Shown here one piece after another: positions 10,776 to 41,508 of a stretch of 64,000 nucleotides of DNA (position 1 is the stretch's first letter; each line of letters opens with the position of its first letter). The stretch comes from Tomocerus qinae (lineage: Eukaryota; Arthropoda; Collembola; Entomobryomorpha; Tomoceridae), in contig CM034546.1 of the NCBI GenBank assembly GCA_020055645.1, positions 83,018,001-83,082,000 on the forward strand, read 5' to 3'. Position numbers and translations under genes: made by a program. The notes under the pieces are model-generated. The model had not been told where the DNA came from. It saw only the letters and a list, made by a program, of their open reading frames with translations, and did not search any database.

Positions 10776-11064
10776 CCTTTTAGCATATCATGTTAATACC
10801 ACCATCCTAAGCTACAATTATCATATCATATCATACTACTCCACTCTATGAATAATACAAGTTATAATTGAGTTTGAGATTTCTAAAAGTACACTTTTCA
10901 GTAACAATCTCTGTCTCTAATGGAGACAACAAAGTGCCACTATTGTCACCCAAGAGCAATACTCGACAGTCTCCAATCAATTACATCCGACAAAAGACTT
11001 TCCAACCTCAGCTTTGTTAACAACCACATTTTGTTTCTAAGTAAAATGAGCCCAATCCCACATA

Positions 11065-11933
11065 CCGTAAATATCGATATAATTCCGCGCGGAATTATTG
11101 TTTCAAAGGCACAAAAAAAGGGTGAATAGTCGAAATAATTCCGCAGCTGCGGAATTATTTCGATACGCGGAATTATTTTTCAGTCAATTTTTATTTAATT
11201 TTCAATGCTAAAGTTAAAAATGAAAAGAAAGTTTAATAACAAATGGATTTATATTTCATCTTCTGAAGACAGTGATATATCCATCGGGTACACAAGATTG
11301 AGGTCCATGTCTTCGTCGTCCGAAGGCAGTAAAATATCATCCTTATTGATCAAGGGCTGTTCCAATTGCATGTACTGCTGCCGTAGCATTTCTCTCCCTT
11401 CATTACAATCTTTGCCTGGTTTAAAAGCAGTGATTAAATTGTCCTGGCTTCCATCCGTAGCATTTAGAATTCCACATGAAAAGAAGGAATTAAACAAATC
11501 TCTGCCAATAACTGTCCTCAGGAATATTGTAGTTAAGGGATCATCCATCCACACTTTTCCGGCATAAACTAATTCCAGTTTCGCAGTGAATTTCTCTGAA
11601 CCCTTTATTGTACACGCACTCGATTTAATAACACAAAGGGTTTCAGTTTGGTTCTGTCCGCCTTGGCAGTCAACATGATTGTTATGTATGCATAGTTTAT
11701 TGTGTCCAGTTGTAAGAACTGTTCTTATTTCCTTAGTACATATGCACTTATTTATTTTATCTTATCATTAAAACCTTTTACCTACACTAACATGAATACG
11801 CAGGTAAAGGTACGCGGAATTATTTCGATACGCGGAATTATTTGCTATAACGGCCTAAAAAGCTAAGTAAAATCGAATTAATTCAGCGTACGCGGAATTA
11901 TTTCAGTAGGCGGAACTATATCGATATTTACGG
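11065..11933 (-). mobile_element. pogo-type element, internally deleted copy
   Basis: The terminal repeats CCGTAAATATCGATATAATT (left) and its near-complement (right) are flanked by TA (11063-11064 and 11934-11935), as in pogo/Tc1-mariner elements. On the minus strand, 11554-11249 encodes WMDDPLTTIFLRTVIGRDLF joined directly to a C-terminal part with SCGILNATDGSQD and an acidic tail. Compared with the fuller element at 23475-25642, the DNA-binding region and most of the DDE domain are gone. Subterminal copies of GCGGAATTATTTCGATA occur at both ends. Confidence 0.85.
11249..11554 (-). pseudogene. pogo transposase remnant (end of DDE domain fused to C-terminus)
   Basis: A 101-codon frame. Residues 2-21 (WMDDPLTTIFLRTVIGRDLF) match a block of the transposase at 23475-25642 (WMDDPLTAIYLKKIIGRDLF). 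The next residues match its C-terminus (YSCGILNAPDGSQNDLI, FKPGKDC, then an acidic DDED/SSED tail). The two blocks are about 100 residues apart in the fuller protein, so this copy has an internal deletion that kept frame. The catalytic residues are missing, so it cannot act as a transposase. Confidence 0.85.
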
Positions 11934-11935
11934 TA

Positions 11936-12391
11936 AATGTCTATAAAGAACCTATTCTTCGCAACAATCTAGCTACTCTGTCGGGGGTGACTACAAAAAT
12001 ACGTTTAAAAGTTGATGCCGTCATTGGAAAATTCCGAATTGAAAATTCCGAAAGTCATCCGAAAATTCCGTATAGTCCGAGCTCATCGATAAGCTCGGAC
12101 TATACACGGAAGCTCCTCCCATTTGGTGCCAGCTATCCATAGGGCCACTTGCCATGGGGCCAGGTATCCGGGTGGCCAGTTTCCATGGGGCCACCTCGCC
12201 GGACACGCCCTTTGCTACCGGTTAACGACGAGTGGTCCATTAGACCATTGGGCCCTCCTTTTTTAAGCGAGTTTTATTCTTTTTAAAGTGATTTACAGTG
12301 CCAGTGCCACTTTATTTGCTTAGCTATAGTTAACAGGCGACATTAACGCCACATTTGGCGTTCAATTTTATCCGACCAAAACCGTAATATG
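11936..12391. other. Unassigned, with a 34-nt perfect stem-loop
   Basis: Positions 12071-12104 read TATAGTCCGAGCT, an 8-base centre, then AGCTCGGACTATA: a perfect 13-bp stem. It is followed by a G/C-richer patch with repeated CCATGGGGCCA-like words (about 12140-12200). No coding region supported. Confidence 0.55.
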
Positions 12392-13803
12392 ACGGCTTAA
12401 GCCGTAGAACGATGTATGTTAGAACAAAGTCCTAAAATTGTTTAAAACCCATAGTAACAAAATGTTGCCAACTCGAAGGATACCAGTACACACGAAAGAA
12501 TGCATCCGACACCGAGACAATTTTGAATTCTTTTGATAGTTATTAATAAATAGCTGAAAACTGGTTTTTATTGAAACAAGTTTCATTTCAAGGCGCATTG
12601 GTTTTCACTATTATTGAGTTTCATTTCAGTGCACAAAAAGCAGTCTGAAAATTCAAATTTCAGTGCTTACTGCGTTCTAAAAACTAAAATTCCAAAACAA
12701 AAATTTTAAGTTACTGCAAACAAACGAACTAAAACTGTAAACTGGAGTTTCTTTGCATTCTGCGGCATGAAAATTAAATTTTGTATTTGTATTTATTTAA
12801 ATTGTAGTTAAATAAAGTATTTGTCCCCATTTCTTCGGTGTGGAAACTTAAATTTTGAGTTTTTGTAAAATTTAGGCCAAATATTATAATTTATATTGTG
12901 AATTTCGATTTTTTACACTGCTTTATGGACGGAAACTCGAATTTTTAATTTTCTCACCGCAGTGTCCACAATAGCTCAGAATTTTAGTTTTTAGGCAGAA
13001 ATGTGTACAGTTTTAATTTGTAGACCACTTTGTGCACTGAAACTAATTTTAAATGTTTAAATCGTTACGTGCACAAGACACTTGAAATTTAAATTTTGAG
13101 ACCCCTACGTTCTCGTTATTAAGTGCTGTTAGTGGTTTTAATTTGGTCCGTTCAGTTTGAGGGGTAATTTTTAAGCGTTGGAAAATTTGGAGGCTGAATT
13201 TAGGCAGCGGAATACCAATTATTCCGTTTCCTCCAAAGTGCCACATAACCTATTATCCGTTTCCTCCAACTCCAATCCAACATCCAAACTTAATAAAATA
13301 CCCTAATATACATTGCCTCCCGTGTTACTATTTTTGCCTCCTTTCTAAACTGATGTAATAAAAAATATAGCTAATAGGATAATAGGTTATGTGGCATCTT
13401 GGAGGAAACGGGGTAGGAGAAAACGGTGGAAACAATATCCCGCTGAGTAAATTCAGCCAATTTGGACCCTACCTTGACTTGGGATGGGAATAGTGTTCGG
13501 TCGGTGACCAGCCGGCTGGTCGGCTAAAATGGCTTTCAAGGCATTTAAAAACGGTTTAAATTCTTTGTTACCAGTCGACTGTCGGAAACTTACTTCGAAA
13601 ATATTTCAACCGTTTTATAGATTTCCAACTAAAATTTTGATTGTTTTTGCACTTTTTGCACTATCCCATTTAATTACTAACATTATTATTCAGTTGTCGG
13701 ATGCGTTGTGAAGTTGCTATCGGATATTTAGTTTTATTGTAAAATAAATACCAGGGTGAGCTGGATATTATTCTAACATACATCGTTCTTCGGCTCAAGC
13801 GTT
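12392..13803. mobile_element. DNA element with about 33-bp terminal inverted repeats
   Basis: The left end ACGGCTTAAGCCGTAGAACG continues GATGTATGTTAGAA; the right end is its complement with small changes (GTTCTTCGGCTCAAGCGT). A right-end fragment of the same family is at about 1300-1430. No transposase is visible. Inside, 13218-13412 holds a smaller inverted repeat (CCAAAGTGCCACATAACCTA and complement), probably a nested MITE. Superfamily not determined. Confidence 0.6.
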
Positions 13804-13805
13804 CA

Positions 13806-14012
13806 TATACTGATATCAAACGACTGTAATGCAGAAGTCAAATGTTGCAATAAATATCCCCCCTGAGAATGTTCGTGAAAATCATAAAATTTTAAAATGA
13901 AATACTGTGTTGTGATTTATTATTTATTATATAATATCCATGGATAATTTGTAATGAATATCATTACAAAACCGACCCGATTAAAGCTAAACTGTCTAGG
14001 TCTAGACCAATG
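13806..14012 (-). repeat. Right arm of the inverted-repeat pair with 10553-10775
   Basis: Inverted copy of the left arm: ATATCAAACGACTGTAATGC near its start and AAAGCTAAACTGTCTAGGTC near its end. It lies directly against the right end of the 12392-13803 element. Confidence 0.7.
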
Positions 14013-14316
14013 TGTTTCCATAACCACTTTATGACCTCTTCTTTCTCATGTGATGAAACTTCGGAGTTTTACCTGTAAAAATTTGGAATAGCCTACGGGA
14101 CGTAAGACAAAGGAAATGTCAACACTAAATTAATCATCGTCATTGTGGAAGTGAGGGTATGCATGATTTACTTACATTCTCCATTTAACTAACCCCAGGA
14201 GTACAGTAAAATGCGATGATTATGCAATAAAAGTAGCATAAAGCTAAAAATAACAAAATGCTCTTATTTAACCTCTTTAAAACAAGATGTTGCATTAACT
14301 TTCTAGAGCTACTCAA

Positions 14317-14583
14317 TCACATGCTGACAAGGTACACTGATTGAATCTTGAGGTAATAATTATTTTTAATAATCCAAACATCTTTAAATTGACATGTATA
14401 AAGTTCTGTCCAAAGTCTAACATTTTTTGTACTCATATGGTGAACAATTCCTACAACTTCCAATTCGCACTTGTGAACTTTACATATAACTTCAAAAAGC
14501 TTCTGTTTTGTAACTTTTCCATCGTAGCTAAAATGCACTATATGCTTCCAAGTTGGGCCTAGACCTCGCACCGAAAATACCAT
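14317..14583 (-). pseudogene. P-element (THAP9-like) transposase fragment
   Basis: Minus-strand frame reading VFSVRGLGPTWKHIVHF, then LFEVICKVHKCELEVVGIV and NVRLWTEL. This is the block of P-type transposases with the pattern RGLxxxWKxP...L...I..V...G..V...V.D.G..N...W..L. The second catalytic aspartate of the family (VCDMG in the 34927-38324 protein) is replaced by HH here, so the copy is dead. Homology begins exactly where the Tc1/mariner-type palindrome ends, so that insertion split an older gene or truncated it. Confidence 0.7.
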
Positions 14584-14585
14584 TA

Positions 14586-15934
14586 CTGTTACAATTATCG
14601 CTACGCGATATTTTTCAAATAATAACCGCAGTGAAAATCGCTTCTGATTGGTCGATGCATTTTTGAAATTGACCAATCAGAGCACAGGATTCCATAGCAA
14701 AATTTTATATGATTTTCATAAATCATTCCCAAGGGAAATATTTATTTTAACACCGAACTTTGAACTACAGACTTGTGATAGGATAGGAAAATACGGACTC
14801 ACACTTTTAGCATAATCGCAAACTAATACACTGCACTCAACTCTATGTTGCTTACTTGCTGAACAGAGCAATTGCTTTCATGTGTTACAATTGATTATTC
14901 CTTCACTAAGCAGTCTGAACAAACATATAATCATAACATTTTGCATAAATATTATCACCACTACTACAATCCGTATTCATCTTTCTCTATGAAGTAGTAC
15001 AAACTAATTAATTAGATTTACTTTTAAAATTACAATTACAAGATATGATTGAAAATAAATATTTTGCATAAATTTTTTTAGCATAATCGCAAACTAATAC
15101 AGTGTACTATAAATTAAATTACAGACTAACTAATTTACTTACTGAACAGAGCAACTGCTTGCATGTATTACAAATTTGATTATTACTTCACTATTATAAG
15201 CAGTCTGAACATACAAAATCATAACATTTTGAAAACTATTATTATGTACTAGATACTTTAAAGTATACTAAGACGTAACTATTACATAGTACGATGTTTA
15301 AGCACAATTTAAATAATATTTAAATATCTACCACCTGACAGACCTGTACTATCTGACTGACATATCCAACTAGACTGACCTATCCAACTAGACTGATCTA
15401 TCCCACTAGACTGATCTATCCCACTAGACTGACCTATCCCACTAGACTGACATATCCCACTTGACTTTCAATCATATCTTGTAATTGTAATTTTAAAAGT
15501 AAATCTAATTAATTAGTTTGTACTACTTCATAGAGAAAGATGATTACGGATTGTAGTAGTGGTGATAATATTTATGCAAAATGTTATGATTATATGTTTG
15601 TTCAGACTGCTTAGTGAAGGAATAATCAATTGTAACACATGAAAGCAATTGCTCTGTTCAGCAAGTAAGCATCATAGAGTTGAGTGCAGTGTATTAGTTT
15701 GCGATTATGCTAAAAGTGTGAGTCCGTATTTTCCTATCCTATCACAAGTCTGTAGTTCAAAGTTCAGTGTTAAAATAAATATTTCCCTTGGGAATGATTT
15801 ATGAAAATCATATAAAATTTTGCTATGGAATCCTGTGCTCTGATTGGTCAATTTCAAAAATGCATCGACCAATCAGAAGCGATTTTCACTGCGGTTATTA
15901 TTTGAAAAATATTGCGTAGCGATAATTGTAACAG
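14586..15934. mobile_element. Tc1/mariner-type long-palindrome element
   Basis: Arms of about 470 bp (14586-15055 and 15467-15934) are near-identical inverted copies beginning CTGTTACAATTATCGC. TA flanks both ends (14584-14585, 15935-15936), the duplication made by Tc1/mariner/pogo-type transposases. The middle holds a partial second copy of arm sequence (about 15070-15245) and a tandem 18-bp array (GACTGACCTATCCCACTA-like, 15351-15466). No transposase gene. A shorter one-armed relative is at 43966-44421. Confidence 0.85.
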
Positions 15935-16197
15935 TACGTTTTTGTTGTTTCCCAAAATTACGCTCCAGTAAAACCATAACAATATTTGCTGTCAATTGCC
16001 ATCTAAAATAATTAAAAACAATCAGTAAATATATTTTATGAAGGAAGTACTGTTTAGGAATCCTATTAGGAGTAAAATCTTTTAGGAGTGATTCCCTCGT
16101 ATGAATCGATCCCTGACAGCGAAATAGTTTTCTTTGCGTAAGATAACTGCTTTTCTAGGTCGGCAACATACGATTTCATAGTTCTGGTAATATCTTT

Positions 16198-16548
16198 TCA
16201 ATGAAATGAGAACCTTAAGTTACAATTCACTAGGAATTTTAGGATTTTTATTATTATTGCACCTTTAGGGACACTTTCTTTAGCTTTTTTTACCGACGGT
16301 ACTGCAAACGAATGAAGCTGACGTGTTTTTCTATCTGTAGCGTTGGGTTTGTAATCATCTTCAGTGAAGTGCAATGCACAAACGCCGCAATTTCGAATGT
16401 CCTTATCAAATTGCGCTCCTGTAGATATGAAGTCCATCCACTTTAGTCTGTGCGTTTCATTTTCATCGTCTTTGGGTATCAAATGAACAGTGTCTACAAC
16501 ATTATTTTTCGAATTGACACAGCCTTTAAACACACACCTTCGTCCCAT
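16198..16548 (-). pseudogene. THAP-domain exon of a P-type transposase gene
   Basis: The predicted peptide begins MGRRCVFKGC and has the THAP C2CH zinc pattern: C5 and C10, then VCALHF (C and H), with a conserved W in KWMDF. THAP domains bind DNA at transposon ends or promoters. A donor-like AAAG/GTGCAA follows VPKG; further minus-strand sequence at about 16190-16060 could be a coiled-coil exon (YVADLEKQLSYAKK). With the fragment at 14317-14583 it makes a scattered, disrupted P-type gene. The THAP frame itself is uninterrupted. Confidence 0.8.
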
Positions 16549-18230
16549 ATTATTAGCATTTAATTCCTTAAATTTAATCAGTTTTAGTAAAAGCTACTAC
16601 CAAAGAACCTATACTATGATTACGTCCCGTAGCCTATTCTGTTATAAATCCAAAGTTTCATCACAAGGGTTCTGAGTCGTGTTTTTTATGGGTTGGGGTT
16701 TCTGGAAAAAAACCCACCCCGCTTAACTTAAAAAACCCTGGGTTTATCGGGTTTTTTACAAAACATCCAATAATATGTACTAAAGCTCTATATAGATAAG
16801 CAAAACATACTAATTTGCTCATATTTCTAATCAAAAATGTAAAAGAAATGTAAATGCAGGTGGAAAGTGGAAACAAATTATAGCTTCTACACTTTTACGT
16901 GCAATAAATGTATCGTATCGAGATAACTAAGTATATAATATTAGTTATATGCAAATTTTAATCAGTGTGAAAATAATATTATTGTTGTTTACATAATTCA
17001 TTGCTGTACTGCTTCACAATTAAAGCACTAAATTAATAAAGGAATTTCATAAAGTCAATTTAATCAGTAAAATATTATATTGCAGTTATAGTTGTTATCA
17101 AACCGTTAAATTAGTATAGGTGCTAAAAAAATTACTGCGTGTTTGCCGTACCGGAATCTCGTTTCAGCAGGTGCAGACGCTGAAAAGAGATCCCGGTGTT
17201 TGCCGTTTGCTGTGTTAAAATATGTTACCAATAAAACTTTTTGTGCTTATGTTTTTATATGTGTAAATAATAGCAGTTGCAAGATTACACAAATATTGTT
17301 ATTGTCAGCTGTAATTTTCCTATATGGCCGTGTGTTTTTTCCTAAAAACCAGGGTTTTTATTGGTTACCTTGGTAAAGACAAGATTACCTGGATGAAGCG
17401 GTTCACGAATTGAGGAGTGGTGGGATAGGCTTTTGAAAAGGCTTTTTGCACATCGAGGAAGAATTGGAAGGTTTCATTGCGGAGATTGTTTCCAAAAGAT
17501 TCCCAGCTCTGGTCAATTAACCCGATGAGTCTCAAAAGACTTTTTTGAGTTTCCAAAATTACTTTCTGCAACTCTTCCCTCTGAGACTGAATGCTACCCG
17601 TTGGGACGGTGGTAATGGATGTCATCAAAATGGAGTAGGACGGAGGATTTAAGTCAGATGTCCTCGCTGCTTTGAATTGAAAGAGCCATTGATTGTCATC
17701 ACTTTTTTGTCAATAAACTTTTCTTCATAGGGACACATTCGATTCGAGGCAGGCTAACCTGCTCTCAGGATTTGTCAATCACTATGTATGAGGTTGGGTT
17801 AGGGATTGAATGTAAAAGCATATCTCGACAACCTAAAACTTTTGTCTAACAATTATATTATATTATTCTTAGATTGAGCGTGCTTTAATTCAGCAACTCT
17901 GTCGGAGGACCGGTTCTCCCACTAGACACCGAAGATTCAGTTATTCATGACTATATTTGGTCGTCAAATTCAATCATCATTGCACATTGTTCACTAAGGC
18001 CTACTGAAATGGCCATGCATTTCGTGCCAGAAAGAGCGGATTTGACTTTTTCCTATCTCTCTAATGTTAAATAAACGAATTTCAAATGGCTATAACTTTA
18101 GCAACGGATCTATGCGGATCTTGTAACTTACATATATTGTTAATTACGATAATACAATTATTCTACTGATGTACATATATATCATTGCTCCAGTTCGTAC
18201 CAGTATACGTCAAAAACCGATCGGAAATAT
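16549..18230. other. No recognised gene; one strong stem-loop
   Basis: Positions about 17151-17202 form a 19-bp imperfect stem (ACCGGAATCTCGTTTCAGC against GCTGAAAAGAGATCCCGGT). An 87-codon minus-strand frame at 17365-17628 has an amphipathic, coiled-coil-like composition, but I recognise no family and do not call it. The remainder is AT-rich. Confidence 0.5.
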
Positions 18231-23474: not shown

Positions 23475-25642
23475 CCGTATTAATCGATTTAGTTCCCCAT
23501 ATCGAAATAATTCCCCAGTTGGGGAACTAAATGAATAATTTTGTGAAAATATGGCTCTTCAAATATTTAGTTCCCCATATCGAAATAGTTCCCCACCCCA
23601 AAATTCTAAATTAAAGGTATAAGTACCATAAAACATATCAGAGGAGTGCACCTGTACTTAGCTAGTGTACTTGTACCTAGTCAGTGCATATGTACCAACT
23701 TAGTACATCTGTACTAATCAGTATTCAACATAAGAGAGAGGTGAATACTATCTGATTAAGGAAGATAAAGATTATAGATTTGTTTCAGTTAGTAGAAAAT
23801 GTCTGAAGCTGAAGGAAGAATTTGTTTGACACCCACAAGGCCAACTTCATATATTAGTCGTAATTTGGACTTTAAATTAAAAGCGATACAATTATGTGAC
23901 ACAACGTCAATTAACAGTGCCAGTAAGCAACTTAATGTCGACCGAAAAAGTTTAAGGGATTGGAAGAAAAGACGCCTTGAATTTGAGAATATTCAAGCGA
24001 CTACTGCAGGTAACAATGACTTGAAAACATTGAGCTTGAATTGAAATTAATATTTGTGCAATAAAAGATCCATGTCCAATTTTTGTGTCCTTGTATGTAT
24101 ATTTAAAATATGGTATAATATTGTTGATCCACTGTAGGATCAAGTAGAAAACGACTGAAAGGAGGAGGAAGAAAATTGAAAAATGCAGAAATGGAAGAAG
24201 AGTTGTATACTTGGATCCTACAATTACGAGACAAAAAGTACTGTGTCTCGAGAGCAATAATTCTACGTAAAGCAATGAAACTTTGCGAAAATATGACTAC
24301 AGTTCCCAACTTATCATGGCTTCAACGATTTATGAATCGCAAAGGTTTGACTCTCCGAAGAAGAACTACCGTCTGTCAAAAACTTCCAACTAGTTACATA
24401 CCAACAATTGTTTCGCATATTTTGTACATGCGTAAATTGATACTGGAAAACAAATTTCTCCCGTCGGATGTTTATGCTGCAGATGAAACTGCATTATGGT
24501 TGGATTGTGCAAGCAACACAACTGTGGCGATCAAGGGGTCAAAGGAAGTACCAATTGTTACCACTGGTCATGACAAGTTACGTATTACTGTAATGCTGAC
24601 CGCAAAAGGGGATGGAACCAAATTAAAGCCATTTGTGTTGCTGAAGCGTGTACGTCCTATGAAGGAGTTGAAAAAATTTTCGTCAAAACTGGAACTAGTG
24701 TATGCTGGACGGGTATGGATGGACGACCCCTTGACTGCAATTTACCTTAAAAAGATCATAGGACGAGACTTATTCAGAAGAAAATTTGTAGTGTGGGACA
24801 GTTTCAAATGTCATATCAGTGAAAATACTAAGAAGGAGCTGAAGAAACTCAACATCGACACTGCTGTAATCCCAGGAGGCTGCACAAAATACATTCAAGC
24901 AGCAGACGTTAGTTGGAACAAACAAATCCGTTCAAGGATTCAATTCGAAAGCAGTACAACGAATGGATTTCAACACCCGGTAACATTGAGTTGACTAAAG
25001 GAGGAAATCCTAGGCCGCCGCCGTTACCAACAGTTTGCAATTGGATTTGCGAAGCCTGGGACAGTGTGTCAACGGAAATAATAAAGGATTCATTTTACTC
25101 GTGCGGGATATTAAATGCACCGGATGGCAGTCAAAATGACTTAATCACAGCCTTCAAACCTGGTAAAGATTGTAGTGCTGGTAGAGAGGTGCTACTACAA
25201 CAACAAAACAGCCAAATTGAAGTTCCCGTACTCAATGAAGATGATATTCTGTTGCCGTCAGATGACGAAGAAATGGATGTCGATTTAACAGAGCCAATGG
25301 ACGTATCTCTATCCTCTGACGACGATGTTGAAAACTAAATTCCTTCTAAAATATTCAGTTACTATATTCATAATTTAATTTTGCATTGAAATAATACAAA
25401 AATTTGACAATGAAATAATGCAAAAATTTGACAATGAAATAATACAATAATTTGACTTTGAAATAATACAAAAATTGACATTGAAAGAACACAACAATGT
25501 AACATTGAAATTTTATTTGTCATTTGAAATATAGTTCCCCATATCGTAATAATTCCCCATGGGGGGAACTATAAGAGTATTTTTGACCAAAAACAGGGCT
25601 CGAAATGGGAGTTCCCCTGGGGAACTAAATCGATTAATACGG
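23475..25642 (+). mobile_element. pogo-type transposon inserted in a LINE
   Basis: Perfect terminal inverted repeats (CCGTATTAATCGATTTAGTT and on through CCCC) are flanked by TA at 23473-23474 and 25643-25644. Length is 2168 bp. Subterminal copies of AGTTCCCCATATCGAAATA are at the left (about 23499 and 23570) and AGTTCCCCATATCGTAATAA at the right (about 25531). It carries one transposase gene with a single frameshift. Excision restores the LINE reading frame. Confidence 0.95.
23799..25338 (+). pseudogene. pogo/Tigger-family transposase, one frameshift
   Basis: Exon 1 (23799 to about 24009) encodes a psq/CENP-B-type helix-turn-helix (FKLKAIQLCDTTSINSASKQ, VDRKSLRDWKKR). A donor CAG/GTAACA and an acceptor CTGTAG at about 24137 splice to exon 2, which starts SSRKRLKGGGRKLK. 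The DDE_1 domain shows AADETALWLD (first D), VWDSFKCH (second D) and CTKYIQAADVSWN (third D). Immediately after WNK the frame shifts (about 24920) and continues as KDSIRKQYNEWI through an acidic C-terminus to 25338. The triad is intact, so the copy is one mutation from full length. A deleted relative is at 11065-11933. Confidence 0.92.
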
Positions 25643-31910: not shown

Positions 31911-32342
31911 TCTACTTAAGCATTGTGGACTGTGATACTAATAAGGTGACTTGTGACTTGAAAGCTGTGAATTTCTAAACCCAAACTGTGTTCGTTATAA
32001 ATAGCTGTCATGATCTGTGTACTAGGTGATGGAAAACTGATTTTCGGTTTGATACTTCAAGTCGGCGAAAATTTTCTGTCACCATGACGCAGTTAAAATT
32101 TCGACTAGGAATTGATAATAGCGAAATCTCGATCTGTGTGCTAGGCTATAATCGGTATTATGTATAATTTCTGTCCTTACTCCGTTATTCTTTTACACCA
32201 GTTACTATGGTTTATTTTATTATTTATATACATGAAGCATAAACTGTAGTAATAAGGTAATTTCATGCTCCAAAAACTTGATTTTTTTTGCAACCACATA
32301 AGAGGCGACATTCCCCTTTGACCCCTGCAGTTAACTTGCCAC
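31911..32342. other. No gene seen
   Basis: AT-rich. Positions 32252-32271 are the left half of a 20-bp perfect inverted repeat with 39295-39314 (ATAAGGTAATTTCATGCTCC). Confidence 0.5.
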
Positions 32343-33196
32343 TTGCTCGCCGATATACTGTTTCCTGAGTATGTCTCCCACAATAACTGTACTATAGAAA
32401 GGAAATTTTCATTTAAATACTTTGGTGTCGATTTGGATGATACGCTCTCTTTTAATAATCATGTTGACCGTATTTGTACTAAAATGAGTTTAAGAATGGT
32501 TAATCTATTGCGTTTTAAAAACAAAATACCATCTAAGTCTATGCCTGTCCTATTTAGAGCTATTGTATATACAGTTTTTGAATATGGCCTTATTATTTAT
32601 TCCTGTACTGCTTCTAGTAATCTACACCGTATACAAAGCCTTTTCGATCATTTTTTAATTAAATATTTTTACATTGCTAAATTGTATAGAAGAATTAAAG
32701 CTGGTAACGCCACTATGCCAAATTTATTTGCACTGTATGACAAGTTCCGAATATTATCGGTTGATGAGCAAATCAAATACTCTCTCTGTATTTATGAATT
32801 TTCGTTTCGGCAATATTCTCATTTGTACCCTAGTCGCTTAGCAAATGCTCTGTGCGTAACTCCTAATGTCAGGTCCACTAGACAAAATGAAGATTTAATT
32901 GTTGCTAATTGTAAATTCACCTTTACGAAGGATTCGTTTATAGTAAGAGGTAGTATGGAGTGGAATAAATTGCCCTTTGCCCTAAAGAAAATCATTGACC
33001 TGTCTCTGTTCAAAGTGAAACTGTTAACCTATATTAAATCACTTCGTAATAAATAATTACTAGTTAATAAGTCTCTTTTTGACCCTTTGATGATGTTACT
33101 TAATATAGGTTATTCTTTTTATGTATATGCTCTACGTTTTATATTTTGTGTAGCTTATGTTATTTTTGTCAAATTAGTATTTTATGTCTGAGTCAG
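32343..33196 (+). pseudogene. 5'-truncated CR1/Jockey-type LINE: RT C-terminus and start of 3' UTR
   Basis: A 237-codon frame to 33056 begins inside the reverse transcriptase thumb region. KYFGVDLDDTLSFNNHVDRI is the YLGVxxxxxLxFxxHI block, followed by LFRAIVYTVFEYGLIIY, HRIQSLFDHFLIKY and SMEWNKLP. Everything upstream, including the YADD box, is missing. The 3' UTR runs from 33057 to 33196, is interrupted by a 6-kb P-type element, and resumes at 39214-39275 with a GATTTGATTTGATTTT tail. Confidence 0.85.
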
Positions 33197-33503
33197 GAGA
33201 ACAGCATAGACAAAGTTAACATAGCACAAAAATCATATTTTTTTGCTATAAGACCCTCTAAGAGCCTTTATCGTTGAGAATGCATTGGAGTGTGTAGTGA
33301 TTGGTTGTGTAATGTAGATGCGGGCGGTTCCTTATCGCTTCTTAAAGTAAGCGAAATTGGACCGATCAAAGGAGCGAACATTTGAGTTAGTCTTGTTCTG
33401 GTTTGTGATTACTGCTCTGTATTCGTGAATCATATCCTATTTGCAATTTTAAAAACAGTCCTTTTAGAAAACACAATAGTACTACAACTACTGATTACAA
33501 ACA

Positions 33504-34732
33504 ATGAATAATAATTTGGTAAGTGATTTTCTATGTGTCATACATATAAACAAAATAATATTTTTATCTTCAAGGTTATCTTTGTGTTATTGTGCTTAAT
33601 ATGTATTTGTGGTAGGAGGAATTGCTTCATAAAATCAGGAGCTTAGGAAATGAAGACTACCGTGACCTGATGATACGCGCCTTCGATAATAGTCGCCCTG
33701 CCGATATTCAGAAGTTTATTGTCCAATCAATTAAGAAAAAAGGATCAAGAAACTGCTCCAGGGGGGAGAGCGGTCACAAGGAAGATTCTGGCGTAGACCC
33801 ACAAGGCACCGTGCTGTCATGGCCGTCTCTTCCTTGTGGATCATCAAGATCGGCATGGAATGTAATTTTATTTTTAATAAAATAATTTTATTTTAGGCTA
33901 CCCACAAAAATGTCCATTACTATTGTGAAAGTGTATTATATATTATGCTATAATAGGTGACATTTATTTACCGCGGCGATCTTGTTCCGGTCAAAGGACA
34001 TGTATTTTTTGACGTGGAAAAAATAACTTTAAAGACTGAAATACAAACTCATGAGCAAGTGGGATGCGTTATTGCTGTGGTGAATGAACAAAAAGATTTG
34101 ATATTTTGGAGCTTCATTAAACCAACAAAGGACGTCTGCCAATACTTCAAAAGCATCACCGGGGTTGATAAAAGGAAATTGGAATTAGGTCTTCCTATGG
34201 AAACTGTAAGCACTAATATATTTCTATACTAGTAGCAGTCTAGTAGGATAGAACAAAAGTACATATTCAGTACATGACAAAATAAATGTAATAAACTTTA
34301 CAGGTTTCCTTTTTTGCAAAGCTGTGTTTTCAAGGAAATACCGTAGTGGGATACGACATGAAGAGTGATCTCAAATGTGTTGGCTTAGAAGATGTTTCAC
34401 TTACAGATGACTTGTCCGAATACTTTTATGAAACAAAATTAGCTAATAACTCGAATAAACCAATCAAAGAAAAGTATTCGGTGAAAGATCTCAATAGCCA
34501 TTTCTTCAAAACCGATATCCAGTGCTCGGTTCACTCGGCAATAATAGATGCCAGAAAAACCAGGGATTTGTGGATGAAAAAAGTTGAAATTATTGATCAC
34601 CAGCCAATTTTCGTGGAAAATGTTATTCGATCTGCTAAAGGGTCGTTTAAATACGACAAAACCGATGTGTGTACATGCCCCAATACCAAGACAAACCTAA
34701 GACGTACTGGACTGCAATTTCTTCACCGATAA
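33504..34732 (+). CDS. DEDDh 3'-5' exonuclease (REXO4/ISG20-like fold), four exons
   Basis: Predicted 312 aa. Exons 33504-33518, 33616-33861, 33957-34205 and 34304-34732 all join in phase 0 at GTAAGT/TAG, GTAATT/TAG and GTAAGC/CAG sites. The first 87 residues are of unknown type. Residues 88-260 are a DEDDh nuclease: ExoI HVFFDVEKITL (D106, E108), an alpha/beta middle with FWSFIKPTK and ITGVDKRKLE, ExoII VVGYDMKSDL (D192) and ExoIII HSAIIDARKTRDLW (H247, D252). All five metal or catalytic positions are present. Family members trim RNA or DNA 3' ends using two metal ions; the substrate here is unknown. It lies inside a P-type transposon and converges on the transposase gene, so it is transposon cargo or a captured host gene. 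Exon boundaries are by consensus only. Confidence 0.8.
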
Positions 34733-34926
34733 TTTATTAAAAGAGGCCACATGTCACATTATTGTGAATTAAATGTATTGTTAATTTGCATATCTTAGTT
34801 TATGTATTAATTAAATATGGTATTACAATAAAAACCTTTACTACTGATAAAATATTAATTAATATTATTTATTAAGGAATTATTACAATGCATCTGCTTA
34901 ATGTTACATTATCAATTAATTAACCT

Positions 34927-37900
34927 TTATTGATTACGCAGTTCCCTTCTAGTTTGACTCCACGACTTAGATTGTTTTACACTCTCATTCTTGTCTTTTA
35001 TTATCCTAAACATAATAACCCGTAAATATTTAACAAAAATACTATATCTGTGAATACATTGTGTAGGACATAGCCACCTTTCAACCAACGGTACTGTATT
35101 GTAGAATGTAACCATGTTTGTAATCAAATTAGCACCATTACCATTGAGAGTCTTACTTAATACATAACGGAAAGATTTCGCTACATAAAAGAATACATCG
35201 AAGTTGGCTGACGTCATAACAGTTTTGTAATCTAGCTCGATGAAATTTCTCTGAGAAATAGAATAAGCTTTTTCAAGGACAAGCATTTCATTTTTTGTGG
35301 ACAAAGAGCTGTGGCATAGCATATTTTTACACTTTCCACAATTAGTCTTTGCTATGCTGCTTTTAATACAAAAGCTTCCAACGTACATGGCTACCATTTT
35401 ATTATGTTCATCAATCTTAACCTCCTTTTCTTTTGATTTTAATTCTGAAAAAAAGTTGGTTGCAAGTGGGCTTTGATTACGAAGTACAGCCTCACTTTCA
35501 ACTTCACAGGGAGTACTAAATGGACATGCCAACTCTGTACCTTGAGCAGCTACTCCAATAGTTGTGACTGTTTCGGAAGTGTCGTTGCACGCAAACTCTT
35601 CAACCGTTTCACAAATTAGGTTATTATTCGCTGTGATATTTGTTTCAGCTAATGTGTTTTTAGGAAGAACTAATTTTCTCAAATCTGAGATTGTTATAAG
35701 GGAATTTAAAGAAACATTTTCACAGTTTGCATACTTAGACACTCTCAGTGTACTATTAAATACTAAAAATCGAAAATTTTCTCTGAACTGCCTAGCTGTA
35801 GGATTTTTACACCAACCACCCTTTGATCTGATTAGAGAAAAAAAATTTTCACAGCAATCTTGCTGAATTTTACGAGTGTACACCTTATGGTATCCATCGG
35901 TTTTTAAATCCTGAACCAGCATTTTTATTCCCGTAAGTGTTATTTCTAGGCCCTTTAAAAAGTCTGGTATTCCTTCCTTTCCGCGTGGTATTTTAATTGA
36001 TTTCACTAAATTAATATATTTATCAAATAATAGGGTATTTTCAAAAATTTTGCTTGCGCTTTTTATAGGTTTTGAATCCCACATTTTGGAAATATTACAT
36101 AAATCAAACATTTTGTCAACATCCTTGACAAAAACAGCAGTAGGGTGTGCCATTTTATTCATTCGTTTCCTTTTAATCATTGTCATCATACCACAACCTA
36201 CAGAATGACTAAATATTTGCGCAGCTAATTTCACCTTCATTTTGCTAAAATCTTTTACATTCAAATGTCCAACAGTAAGCTTGGGTGCCATTCTTAAAGT
36301 ACAATTTCTATCTTTCCTAGCAAACTGGTTAATGTACAGCCATTTAATCATTTTCTTTTTCTTTCCTTTGCCAATGACAAAACAATATTTCATTAAATTA
36401 TTACGTATTAATTTGAGTAGATGTGGCATATCAAACACCATATAAATTTTGCGATTACCAATATTTATGAATGGTTTTGCAGGAGTTATTTTCCAGGCTC
36501 TATATAACCCCTGGTTACAAAAACCCATATCACATACACAACCACGCAATTTCAAGTTTATGGACAATATACTATTAATATTTTCCCTTACGATTGCCTT
36601 TAGATTGTCGGTAGTTGTATTCGATGATGAAAAATAATAAGAGAGGGGTAATTTCCAGTCACCGTATAAACCCTGTATCATAAACACCAGACATTCGGTA
36701 GCGAGTTCCAATTTACGACACCCTTTTCCTAGATCTGTTATCCCCGTCAATCTATCTTTGTATTTGTCGTATTCAAGTAACTCCTTAACAGAAACTTCGT
36801 CCCAGACCAAAATGCACTCCAATTCTTCCGACTTCAGAGTACTGACTTTTCCTCTCACCGCCTCAAGTAGTTGTTTATTGATCCCAACCTCAAATTCATA
36901 ATTTGTCATCCAGAATTGAATAGTAGATATACTCGGTAGCATAAATCCCGTTTCGATTAGAGTCCTGAATAATTACACAAGTTAAGCTAACTGATATATC
37001 GATTAAAGTATATTTTGATTTGTGCAATGCTAGAAAATTATAATTACTGGTATCCTTTAGAGCCGCATGAGTAGTATAATGTTAATGCATTAGATTTCTC
37101 CGTTTCGGTGTACAGTAACTTTTTTTTGCTTTGATATCGGTTTACTTGAGACATAATAATGTCCTTTACACCAGGACTCTTTTGAAATATTGATTCAAGT
37201 TTTTGATTTAAGGTTTTAGATTTCTTCAGCTTCATCTGTAGTCTTTGTTTAGATTGCTGACACAGTTTTAAACGTCTTCGTAGATGAAGAAGCCTGTCGT
37301 TCTTTGTGTCAGTTCTCCTAGGTGTCAAATTAGGATACGCCTTATCAAAGTTGCGATCGGAACTTCCACTAGAAACAGCTGTTGAACTTTTATATGTGTG
37401 GTTGATTGGCTTTGGCAGCAGTTTTCTTCGAAAATATTAAATAATAACGGCTTAGTATTAAAACACTGATATTGGTGAATAAAAAATTAGATGAAAAAAC
37501 ACCTATATACTTTAGGAACCGGTATGACATTGTTTTTATTAATTGGAGACTCCAGCTGTTCTTGTCTGTATTGGATCAGTAGAGGAGAGGGATACACCAC
37601 AGCTGTACCTTGCAGGGCCATTCCACTAGTATTAATAGACAATCGAATCTTTTGCTGTGATTGTGGACCACTGAAAATATTACAAAATATGTAATCAGAC
37701 TTAATCAACTCAATTTTTACGATTAATGCACAAGTTTTCCTTTTTGCTATAGAACGTGCTATAAAATATATAATTTCAAATAATACGTATATAACTGATG
37801 ACTGTCACTGGGATGCAGCTGTCCATGTCCACACGGAGGCGTGATTAGTATAGGTTGGGGATACGCTACAGCTGTACCTTGCTTAGCCATTCCACTAGTT

Positions 37901-38324
37901 TTTGTTGACTGGTTCATTTGCAGAGCTTTTAGAGGGCTGGAAATAAATATAGAAAGTAAAATAAAATTTGAATTGATAATATTACAGATTCATCACTGAT
38001 TACACTTAAAATTGTTTGAATCTTTCTTTACCTGCGTATCGACGTAGTTTTCAAATTTTCGTTATTTTCTGACACTGAAAATATGATTTCACTTTCTGAA
38101 GCACCAAAAGGCAAGGCTTTTTTCTTCAATCGACAAGATAATTTTTGGTCAGCTTTAAAATGTCTGTCACAGATAAAACTAGAAGATTTCAAATGTTGAT
38201 CATCGATATTTAGTATTTTAATCCACTCTTTTCGTCGTTCAGGTGTTTTCGGAAGTCGATAAAAATGTGATTTCCGGGAGTTTGCTTCTAACACCCCGCA
38301 ATACAAACATCTACGATGAGTCAT
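34927..38324 (-). CDS. P-element transposase, THAP9-like, five exons
   Basis: Predicted 1005 aa from exons 38324-38032, 37936-37796, 37670-37503, 37425-37048 and 36964-34927; every junction has GT-AG and is in phase 2. Exon 1 is a THAP zinc finger (C6, C9, C52, H55, with W34). Exons 2 and 3 both encode TSGMAxQGTAVxYPxP and look like a duplicated exon. Exon 4 has a basic coiled coil and a segment ending LTLYYSCGSKGYQ, joined to LIETGFMLPSISTIQFW, the helix-turn-helix of P transposases. The RNase H-like core shows ILVWDEVS (D382), CVCDMGF (D472) and QDCCENFFS (E699), with VFDMPHLLKLIRNN in the GTP-binding insertion and a C-terminal CGKCKNMLCH. No stop interrupts the model, so it may be functional. 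It acts in the nucleus on the element's own ends. Confidence 0.88.
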
Positions 38325-38520
38325 TTTATCTTTAATTATCTTTTTTTGTAACTGAACAAAACAAATGATGAATGAAGAAGTGTTCTCTACTTGAACGTAT
38401 AAAAGTATGAATGTGGAACAATTTCTGACGCGGCGAGTTTATGTGAAACATGTGATCGACTCCCATACTCCTCCTATTCTCCGCCCGCTGGAATATTAAG
38501 AATTGTGTGTGGCTCCCAAC

Positions 38521-39115
38521 CAGTGTACAAAATTTACCACTTTTTAGCCTTTTTTACCATCACAGTGGTAAAAATGCACTTAATGGTAAAAATGCATTTA
38601 ATGGTAAAAATGGTAAATTTTAGCGATTGATTTTTACAGCTGGGTACAGATACACTAGACTTCCTAAAATTTAAGTTTTAAAACTTTATTTTCTATGAAA
38701 TATTTCCAATTAGCCCCTTAATCAATTAAAATATTCATATATATTAGATTAGATTATACACCAAAAGTTATAAAAAAATGAAGAAAAAAAGATTGTATTT
38801 GGAATCGCCCATTTAAAGTTGGTGCTAATTTAATTGCAATTATTTTCCAATCGGCAAAGGTTGTTAGCTCCCCCATTGGTTGAATCCTACTCTGGTTGCT
38901 GAACACTTATCAATTTGTGACAACAATCATCATCTGCTAAGCTATTTCATACTTTGGCACCGAATTTTATACAAAATTAAAACACGAAATTTAAATGAAA
39001 CTATTTTTTACCATTTTTACCACTTACCACTACTTATTAGGTAGTGGTATTTAACGTTAAATACCATTAAAAACCACTTACCAGTGGTAAGTGGTAAATG
39101 GTATTTTGTACACTG
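38521..39115. mobile_element. hAT-type MITE inserted in the P element
   Basis: The ends CAGTGTACAAAAT and ATTTTGTACACTG are perfect inverted repeats of the hAT CAG/CTG type. The 8-bp duplication CTCCCAAC is exact (38513-38520 and 39116-39123). The interior has clustered GGTAAAAATG and ACCATTTTTACC words at both ends, extending the foldback. No coding region. Confidence 0.92.
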
Positions 39116-39213
39116 CTCCCAACCAGCCAACTATAATGAGTAATATTCCAGAGCTCGCTCGCAAAATTAGATAGAGATTGGGCCTATTAACTACTTTCTA
39201 TATGGGAGAACAG

Positions 39214-39275
39214 TGTATCATTTTCTGATATTTCTGATGTAACTTGACAATAAAGCAATGATTTGATTTGATTTT
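39214..39275 (+). repeat. LINE 3' end displaced by the P-element insertion
   Basis: TGTATCATTTTCTGATATTT, TGACAATAAAGC and then GATTTGATTTGATTTT: the polyadenylation-like signal and short-repeat tail that end many CR1/Jockey LINEs. With the P element removed it continues the 3' UTR ending at 33196. Confidence 0.75.
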
Positions 39276-39758
39276 CCGTTGCCATTGGCAACGGGGAGCA
39301 TGAAATTACCTTATCCCTTTGTCCCTTTCAATCTAATATTTTACTTACATTGCTGTAGTAATTACTAGTCATAGCGCTATATAAGTCCAGTAGCGAATTT
39401 TGCTATATAGATTTCTGAAGATTTATAATCCGGATTATTTCTGAGAAAAATCCCTTACCTTACCTTTGCTATAATGCTTCAACATTGATTATCTCACTCC
39501 AGCATCAAAGTAATTGAAGCTGTGAGATGTAGAAGTCTAACTTTCAGAATATTGAAATATCGTCATAGAAATAGTCTAAATTTGGTCATTAAATGGGGGA
39601 GGTCCACTAATAATTTTCCCGCTCTTTTATGATTCATTATAATTCGTCAATCATCTGAATCATTTCAAGAAGAAAACAAATTACTTCAAGGACATTTTAT
39701 TTCATTGTAAAAAACTCATTTCGGATAGGAAAGTTGTATCTATTTAAGTTAGTAAGAA
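39276..39758. other. No gene seen
   Basis: Contains the short palindrome GTTGCCATTGGCAAC (about 39279-39293) and the right half (39295-39314) of a 20-bp inverted repeat with 32252-32271. Otherwise AT-rich and unassigned; it may include the promoter of the next gene. Confidence 0.5.
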
Positions 39759-41508
39759 ATGGTGAACCAGGAAAATATCCATCCATTAAAGCCAAAAAAG
39801 AGAGCTAAGGATGAACAGAATTGGCGAAGAAAACGAACCAAGTTACAGAAGGCTAGAGGTAATGCTGATATTATTATGGTGGTTTTAAAAATTTGCTCTC
39901 CATAATATTAATAAATTACGCAATACTAAGAATTGAGTGTTATTTTAGGCGAGGGCTATATCTCTCACCACAGCATGAACATAATGCCACCAAGAAGCAT
40001 GGCTGACAATCACTGCCGACATGATTGCCGTGCCAAGTTAACCACGGCACAGAAGGAGCATGTATTTAATAGCTTTAACCAGTTAGCTGATCACGAAAAA
40101 CAAAATATTTACTTGAGAAAAAGCGTCGGATTGATAGATGGCCAGCAAAACTGGATACTTCATCTTCCTCAAAAAATCGAGAATGCTTGTCTAAAATATT
40201 TCCTTGGTTTGCACAGAATTAAGAGAAGTCGTTTACAAAGAAAGGTCTAAACTACTACTATTCTAAATACTACTTGACACTTTTTTTATAATCAACAAAT
40301 GTTAATAACAAACAACGATAACTATATAGGTTTTAAAAAGGGAAGTTCACATCCAAGACGGAAGGGGGAAACATGGTCATCACCAGCGTACTGATGAGGA
40401 GATTTTACTGGCTGTTCGACACTTTTTATCGAATTTAGGGTCTAGAGAGAGCCATTACTCCCGAAATAACAATGCAAACAGAAGCTACTTGGAATCTCGA
40501 GTCACCGTTGCGTCTCTATACAGAGATCTGTGCCGGAGCGAACAAACGATTATCACGGAAGATAAAGTTGTGGCAATTTCGAAAAATCTATTCCTATGAG
40601 TTCAACATTTCTATCTGTTTTCCAAGGAGCGACGTGTGCGAAACCTGTGAGATGATTAACTGCAATTTACGAAGGGCTCAATCAAATGGAAATGATGAAG
40701 AAGTGCGAAATTTTAAGGATGCACAGGAAGCGCACTGGAGGGCCGCTGAACACTTCATTTTAAGAATGTCGAAAGAAGTCGTAGTCGCTTCAGATGAAAC
40801 TCATGGTTATTTCTGTTTCGATTTTCTGAAAATCCTACCCTTTCCAGTAACTAATGTAGGCAAAGAGTTTTTTCTCCGCCAAATCTAGCTCTACAATTTT
40901 ACCATTCATGATCTGAAGACCCATCAAGCTTATATGTTCTTGTTCTGTGAAAATTTTGCCAAAAAAGGGTGTTCTGAAGTAACAAGTTTCATTAAATACT
41001 TCATCGAAAATATTGCTGCACCTGAAATTCGCCATTTGTATTTATTCAACGATAACTCTTTTGGACAAAACAAGAATCGATTCCTAATGTGCTACTGTCA
41101 ATCTATTTGCGGGACAAGATTCGACAGTATTGAAATTAACTACCCCTTGCCAGGTCACAGCCGCATGCAGGGGGATGCTGATTTTGCACTAATTGAGAAG
41201 AAGAAGCGTAAAAAGGACAAAATTGAATTTCCTTCAGATAGGTTACCATGATCCGTGAAACAAGACAGAACAATCCTTTTAATGTAGTATTCGTCAATCA
41301 TCCGATTACAGATTCTCTTCAAAATGATGGTACACCTATAGCACAAGTTTACAATTTCAAGGATAGTTTTAGTCCCCATCTTGTCCAAGCTCAGGGCATC
41401 AGAGGAATTCGACGCATGTTATTTACTCAGGAACGAATGCAACCATTACACAGTGTCTTATATGCTTTTGATCGAGGCCCAATCAACGAATATGGTGAAA
41501 TCTATTAA
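39759..41508 (+). pseudogene. DUF7869-like transposase-derived gene, second copy, broken
   Basis: Exons 39759-39858, 39949-40244 and one starting at 40330 join in frame at GTAATG/TAG and GTCTAA/TAG sites. The protein has a basic start (LKPKKRAKDEQNWRRKRTK), a cysteine region (CRHDCRAKLTTAQKEHVF), the GRGKHGHHQRT and SHYSRNN motifs, then a C-x2-C pair (SDVCETCEM), VASDETHGYF (first acidic strand), YNFTIHDLKTHQAY, LFNDNSFGQNKN and GHSRMQGDADFALIEKK. Defects: a frame change at about 40540-40585, an in-frame TAG at about 40886, and another frame change at about 41248. The family and domain order match the copy at 1-1285, but the sequences are well diverged, so these are two lineages. Splice sites still look good, so inactivation may be recent. 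Confidence 0.8.

Follow-up and report, generated by a model that had tools for sequence, protein, structure and literature searches.

P elements are among the best-studied cut-and-paste transposition systems of animals. The Drosophila P element begins with CAT, and clean-up of the unusually long staggered cuts made during P transposition is generally ascribed to the host. The accessible parts of three papers set out the general architecture. Insertion creates 8-bp target duplications (PMC7776569, PMC10983969, PMC1562414). The ends of the zebrafish element Pdre2 start with CATA (PMC10983969), and subterminal inverted repeats measure 11 bp with a spacer of about 100 bp in Drosophila P and 12 bp with a spacer of 400 bp in Pdre2 (PMC7776569, PMC10983969). 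Terminal repeats of 27–31 bp and perfect 8-bp duplications characterize seven Anopheles P subfamilies; in two of these the repeats contain 8 and 6 mismatches (PMC1562414). In cleavage, the second strand is cut 17 nt inside the element, so that the transposon ends carry 3' extensions of 17 nt (PMC7776569), the same overhang length that an original prediction on the present DNA had given. The locus considered here lies in a 64,000-nt stretch of the Tomocerus qinae genome, called the window below. Positions 33205–39204 are best read, from their sequence, as a single P-superfamily transposon that encloses two genes, one for a transposase and one for a DEDDh exonuclease. The original prediction had proposed such an element with paired ends around both genes, and Pfam and Protein Data Bank (PDB) matches, the ends themselves and a subterminal repeat all agree with it. 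The analysis is based on one copy, in one 64-kb window, and on protein libraries, solved structures and papers.

33205–39204, no strand assigned: P-superfamily transposon of 5,397 bp once a nested miniature inverted-repeat transposable element (MITE) and one copy of the 8-bp MITE duplication are discounted

The transposase gene occupies most of the element and is read from the minus strand.

38032–38324, minus strand: transposase exon 1, THAP domain with the ATG (PF05485, E 1.1e-10)
37787–37936, minus strand: transposase exon 2, first copy of the peptide TxGxAxQGTxxxxP
37503–37670, minus strand: transposase exon 3, second copy of the same peptide
37048–37425, minus strand: transposase exon 4, basic and, by eye, coiled-coil-like
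34927–36964, minus strand: transposase exon 5, both RNase H halves, the GTP-binding insertion and the C-terminal part (PF21787, PF21788, PF21789)

Starting from the ATG at 38324, the five-exon model encodes 1,008 amino acids with no internal stop. The search for splice sites was restricted to GT-AG junctions, so that these are GT-AG by construction; four exon combinations kept the frame within the ranges searched, their lengths differing by at most 7 residues, and the best-scoring one was adopted. Pfam recognizes the THAP domain (1.1e-10, with CLYC at residue 6 and CDRH at residue 52), the N-terminal part of the TNP-like RNase H domain (2e-31), the GTP-binding insertion (PF21788, 2.4e-19) and the C-terminal part of the RNase H domain (3.6e-11). 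The sole PDB sequence match at E<=0.01 is the Drosophila P transposase (6p5a, 6pe2), at E 9.1e-26. Residues D385, D475 and E702 align with D230, D303 and E531 of that enzyme, which we take to be its catalytic residues. Characters of the P superfamily thus present are a P/THAP9-type transposase with D-D-E, an N-terminal THAP domain and a GTP-binding insertion in the RNase H domain. The combination of THAP, RNase H and GTP-binding parts and the three catalytic residues are those of Drosophila P and zebrafish Pdre2/THAP9, and these matches identify the predicted gene product as a P-superfamily transposase. The 14-residue peptide TxGxAxQGTxxxxP occurs three times in this protein, at residues 111, 162 and 798 (37859–37900, 37590–37631 and 35522–35563). 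The two copies in adjacent small exons share 79% DNA identity over 67 bp; the repeats may reflect either exon duplication or a repeated contact motif.

The second gene runs towards the first from the opposite end of the element.

33504–33518, plus strand: exonuclease exon 1, encoding MNNNL, with a GT donor picked by hand
33616–33861, plus strand: exonuclease exon 2, splice sites picked by hand
33957–34205, plus strand: exonuclease exon 3, containing D106 and E108
34304–34732, plus strand: exonuclease exon 4, containing D192, H247, D252 and the stop

All splice sites of this gene were chosen by hand. Spliced together, the four exons give an open frame of 312 amino acids, and the lengths of the first three are all divisible by three. 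The claim of two convergent spliced genes, a THAP9-like transposase and an exonuclease, is thereby upheld, both models being open. A phmmer search of the PDB with the whole spliced protein returned ISG20 (1.1e-4), ISG20L2 (1.2e-3) and SDN1 (0.019) as the top three of four matches at E<=1, the fourth being an oxygenase (0.71). With the 180-residue core the order was the same: ISG20 at 6.1e-5, ISG20L2 at 1.2e-3 and SDN1 at 0.0049, followed by an oxygenase at 0.37 and a cytochrome c at 1.4. No TREX or ERI1 chain was among these five matches of the core at E<=10. The ISG20 alignment spans residues 119–261 and crosses the exon 3/4 junction, which falls after residue 170 and whose modelled splice is thus supported. 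Within it, D192 (the D of Exo II) and H247 and D252 (the H and D of Exo III) align with D94, H149 and D154, presumably the catalytic residues of ISG20. The five residues named in the original prediction (D106, E108, D192, H247 and D252) are all present, and only the last three fall within that alignment. D106 and E108 form a D-x-E motif (D106-V-E108) just upstream of it, at a place that would suit Exo I, and their candidate assignment follows from the position of this motif.

The distance from known members is considerable. No Pfam exonuclease match (RNase_T) was obtained for the spliced protein at E<=5; the segment of SDN1 that aligns here matches RNase_T at 1e-5, and the corresponding segment in the window matches nothing. 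Where SDN1 has DCEM, the present protein has DVEK. The N-terminal ~95 residues matched no Pfam family. Given the missing RNase_T match, the protein is described as a diverged relative and not as a standard member of the REXO/ISG20/SDN group: as predicted from its sequence, it is a strongly diverged DEDDh relative, REXO/ISG20/SDN-like, with its active-site letters retained. Two further points were set aside. Baculo_VP39, the sole Pfam entry listed for the spliced protein, scored E 0.0029 on exon 4 and 0.013 on the spliced protein, below the cut-off of that family, and was rejected as an identity. The openness of exon 4 was rejected as evidence by itself, given that 528 of 20000 random 426-nt window frames are open, coding stretches included.

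The layout of the two genes is compact. The distance from the left end to the exonuclease ATG is 299 bp, and that from the right end to the transposase ATG, MITE discounted, is 277 bp; the genes converge, with 194 bp from stop to stop and AATAAA signals that face each other.

34827–34832, plus strand: AATAAA 3' of the exonuclease gene
34868–34873, minus strand: AATAAA 3' of the transposase gene; a further minus-strand AATAAA starts at 34738

There is little unexplained DNA inside the element, and these distances leave little room for chance host flanks. They bear on the view that a host exonuclease gene was picked up passively together with its introns, is carried without benefit and will decay. 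Its three modelled introns would point to uptake as genomic DNA, only one copy is seen, and codon make-up differs somewhat between the genes, with a third-position GC content (GC3) of 0.403 for the exonuclease and 0.314 for the transposase. A recent idle passenger would, however, not be expected to have diverged so far from the solved members and yet to keep all five DEDDh letters, nor does the tight arrangement with facing poly(A) signals favour it. Passive capture is accordingly rather doubtful.

The proposed ends, with their repeats, and the nested MITE have the following coordinates.

33196–33204, no strand assigned: left target-site duplication GGAGAACAG, 8–9 bp
39205–39213, no strand assigned: right target-site duplication GGAGAACAG, the second copy
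33205–33220, plus strand: left terminal inverted repeat CATAGACAAAGTTAAC
39187–39204, minus strand: right terminal inverted repeat CATATAGAAAGTAGTTAA
33320–33327, plus strand: left subterminal inverted repeat GCGGGCGG, lying 115 bp inside the left end, its single plus-strand occurrence in 64 kb
38481–38488, minus strand: right subterminal inverted repeat, reading CCGCCCGC on the plus strand, 113 bp from the right end with the MITE discounted
38521–39115, no strand assigned: nested hAT-like MITE, 595 bp, with identical 13-bp ends CAGTGTACAAAAT
38513–38520 and 39116–39123: flanking duplication CTCCCAAC of the MITE, 8 bp on each side

The MITE is presumably of hAT type, judging by the length of its duplication and the type of its ends. 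Subterminal offsets were computed after discounting it together with one copy of its 8-bp duplication. The subterminal inverted repeat expected of the P superfamily is found in GCGGGCGG, which, like its complement, occurs once in 64 kb. Of 20000 random end pairs, 506 had some 8-bp inverted repeat at matched offsets and 0 had one with at least 7 G/C, the G/C criterion having been chosen after the repeat was seen. Without recourse to the duplication, the matched GCGGGCGG pair links 33205 with 39204, and both genes lie in between.

The terminal inverted repeats, also a character of the superfamily, are present in weak form. The original prediction described them as imperfect and CA-initial, and so they are: CATAGACAAAGT and CATATAGAAAGT share 10 of 12 bases, beyond which gaps are required. 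Equally good scores arose in 10 of 5000 random end pairs. A general repeat finder did not place them among the 25 longest of its 68 inverted pairs. A box of 2,250 x 1,500 positions around the ends holds 40 nine-bp direct-repeat pairs, of which only that at 33205/39204 has a terminal-repeat score of at least 14. In random boxes with the 33205/39204 pair excluded, a 9-bp duplication combined with a terminal repeat scoring at least 14 occurred in 46 of 1000, and with CA...TG ends in 0 of 1000. When nothing was excluded and another seed was used, such a pair occurred in 67 of 1000 boxes, and with CA...TG ends in 24 of 1000. The direct repeat reported at both borders is confirmed in so far as GGAGAACAG is duplicated; a clean 8-bp duplication was not obtained, the repeat being 9 bp long. 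As it stands, the duplication would be either 9 bp, or 8 bp with one base matching by chance.

If these borders were wrong, the P element would be shorter and the exonuclease a host or other gene alongside it. The imperfect terminal repeats and the unclean 8-bp register speak for such an arrangement, as does the fact that continuity of the interrupted sequence is deduced from this locus only. Against it stand the matched subterminal repeat, the rarity of the full combination of duplication, repeat and CA...TG ends in the random boxes with the pair excluded, and the 8-mers at the left border: between 30,000 and 39,000, GGAGAACA or GAGAACAG (at most 1 mismatch) precede 33204 and 33205 only. Misplaced borders are, on balance, very improbable.

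The interrupted sequence appears to be the 3' untranslated region (UTR) of a long interspersed nuclear element (LINE), split by insertion of the P element.

32322–33204, plus strand: 3'-terminal portion of the LINE, with open frame and 3' UTR, that received the insertion; the LINE would resume at 39205 and run to ~39275 with a GATTT-type tail

At E 8e-12, with 26% over 210 positions, the open reading frame at 32322–33056 matches another LINE-like frame of the window; it gave no Pfam match. Without the split, the 3' UTR would run through GAGTCAGGAGAACAGTGTATC. The tail pattern TTTGATTTGATT has one occurrence in the window, at 39262, beyond the element. An exact target-site duplication of at least 9 bp belonging to the LINE itself was sought and not found. 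Directly after the LINE tail, at 39276–39294, a near-perfect palindrome, CCGTTGCCATTGGCAACGG, can be recognized by eye.

The reading preferred here, to which a probability of roughly 0.6 is given, is that of a two-gene P transposon in a LINE 3' UTR, whose exonuclease is a resident accessory enzyme that trims in the 3'-to-5' direction during the transposition cycle. The proposed course of events is as follows. (i) A two-gene P element would have inserted into the LINE 3' UTR, and a hAT-like MITE would have hit it later. (ii) Both genes would be spliced as modelled. (iii) The exonuclease, as a resident accessory gene, would serve 3'-to-5' trimming within the transposition cycle. (iv) Were the enzyme to act on DNA, its most probable target would be the long 3' single-stranded tail on the donor chromosome; by the geometry of P-type staggered cleavage, the donor flanks should keep 3' tails too. 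The donor side is favoured over the 3' ends of the element itself, which such trimming would destroy were they not shielded by the transpososome. (v) If the substrate is RNA, candidates would be element transcripts or small silencing RNAs.

Several observations weigh against this reading. The terminal repeats are short and imperfect, and shorter than those of the seven Anopheles P subfamilies in the available text of PMC1562414. The duplication is not a clean 8 bp: a strict 8-bp register lowers the score to 10 and leaves one base over at one end. The observed box then holds no pair scoring at least 14, and 26 of 200 random boxes do hold one. Continuity of the LINE 3' UTR across the element, as deduced from its flanks, is a further weak point. 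The position of D106 and E108 outside the ISG20 alignment would be another. With the MITE inserted between the transposase start and the right end, this copy may have lost its promoter context and may be impaired. Only a single copy is known here: blastn within the window at E<=0.01 detected neither gene nor the ends a second time and yielded only internal repeats. Relatives of the exonuclease and of the transposase were likewise absent from viral_contigs (viral) and genome_contigs (prokaryotic), and the right border with the adjoining LINE (39205–39227) and the left element border each gave 0 exact matches in viral_contigs; as non-insect collections, these carry little weight. Finally, the nearest solved relatives of the exonuclease act mainly on RNA, which speaks against a role at DNA ends and makes element RNA or small silencing RNA a serious alternative substrate.

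The last point leads to the possibility that the exonuclease acts as a transposon-encoded suppressor of PIWI-interacting RNAs (piRNAs) or small interfering RNAs (siRNAs), either breaking down small silencing RNAs or protecting the RNA of the element. The family is RNA-directed, and SDN1 (small RNA degrading nuclease) is one of the three related solved proteins. SDN1 is, however, the weakest of the three matches, and the N-terminal region without a Pfam family lends no help; an anti-silencing function is unlikely. For the two-gene transposon, a further proposal may be put forward tentatively, at somewhat less than even odds: a P lineage would keep a dedicated, working DEDDh enzyme as its second gene, either to clear donor 3' tails or to destroy silencing RNAs, and would provide the first known P element that brings its own enzyme for processing ends or RNA.

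Other parts of the window hold further transposon-related sequences. A second THAP-domain open reading frame lies on the minus strand at 16198–16593 (E 4.9e-10), and no P transposase core was seen by eye among the frames of at least 50 amino acids at 11000–17000. Two related pogo/Tc5-like transposase pieces are located at 24128–25338 and 11249–11761; HTH_Tnp_Tc5 and DDE_1 are matched in 24128–24994, and 11249–11761 is similar by eye. The segment 602–1111 matches Pfam DUF7869 (1.4e-12) and is resembled by eye by 40439–41251, the first part of which (40439–40888) has no Pfam match; the two are possibly remnants of a transposon-like family. At gathering thresholds, Rfam gave 0 matches across the window.

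Compared with Drosophila P and Pdre2, the present element has a subterminal core of 8 bp instead of 11–12 bp, a duplicated sequence of 9 bp, and a second gene, for an exonuclease. The word exonuclease is absent from the available portions of a P-element review (PMC7776569), the Anopheles P paper (PMC1562414) and the zebrafish paper (PMC10983969). The original prediction knew of no P element with such cargo. This stands for the P superfamily, in that no P element with an exonuclease was among the matches listed in the open literature (titles and starts of abstracts, with Repbase reports and most subscription papers outside that range); it does not extend to transposons at large, since exonuclease cargo is known in KolobokD, Dada and ISL2EU. 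According to the accessible text of the respective papers, KolobokD, of the Kolobok superfamily, carries a DEDDh exonuclease, for which its authors propose degradation of DNA intermediates starting at the 3' end (PMC9587614). It resembles the present element as a DNA transposon with DEDDh cargo, and differs in its TTAA duplications and in an exonuclease that is TREX-, ERI1- and exuperantia-like, where the present one is nearest to ISG20, ISG20L2 and SDN1. A Kolobok identity was rejected, the transposase here being P-type and the duplication GGAGAACAG, not TTAA. Two Dada elements (Laccaria, Ectocarpus) contain a DEDDy domain whose proposed task is the processing of 3' ends after cleavage (PMC3706591); there too a DEDD exonuclease resides inside a transposon, but it is of DEDDy type and part of the transposase. 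ISL2EU has a YqaJ exonuclease frame beside a THAP-containing transposase (PMC4482050). It shares with the present element the pairing of a THAP-containing DDE transposase and an exonuclease in two frames, but belongs to the PHIS superfamily and has a YqaJ domain instead of DEDDh. A survey of the RNase H-like superfamily, in its available part, clusters ISG20 with the REXO proteins, puts P transposase in a different place and draws no link between them (PMC3985635). The match of the present exonuclease to ISG20, ISG20L2 and SDN1 is collinear and includes D94, H149 and D154 of ISG20. If the reading is true, it would suggest that accessory nucleases arose repeatedly in transposons, in KolobokD, KolobokE, Dada and ISL2EU and now in P, and their role would become testable with the biochemical tools that exist for P transposase. 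With exonuclease cargo known from other superfamilies, the new part is the P superfamily as its carrier and the REXO/ISG20/SDN-like type of the enzyme.

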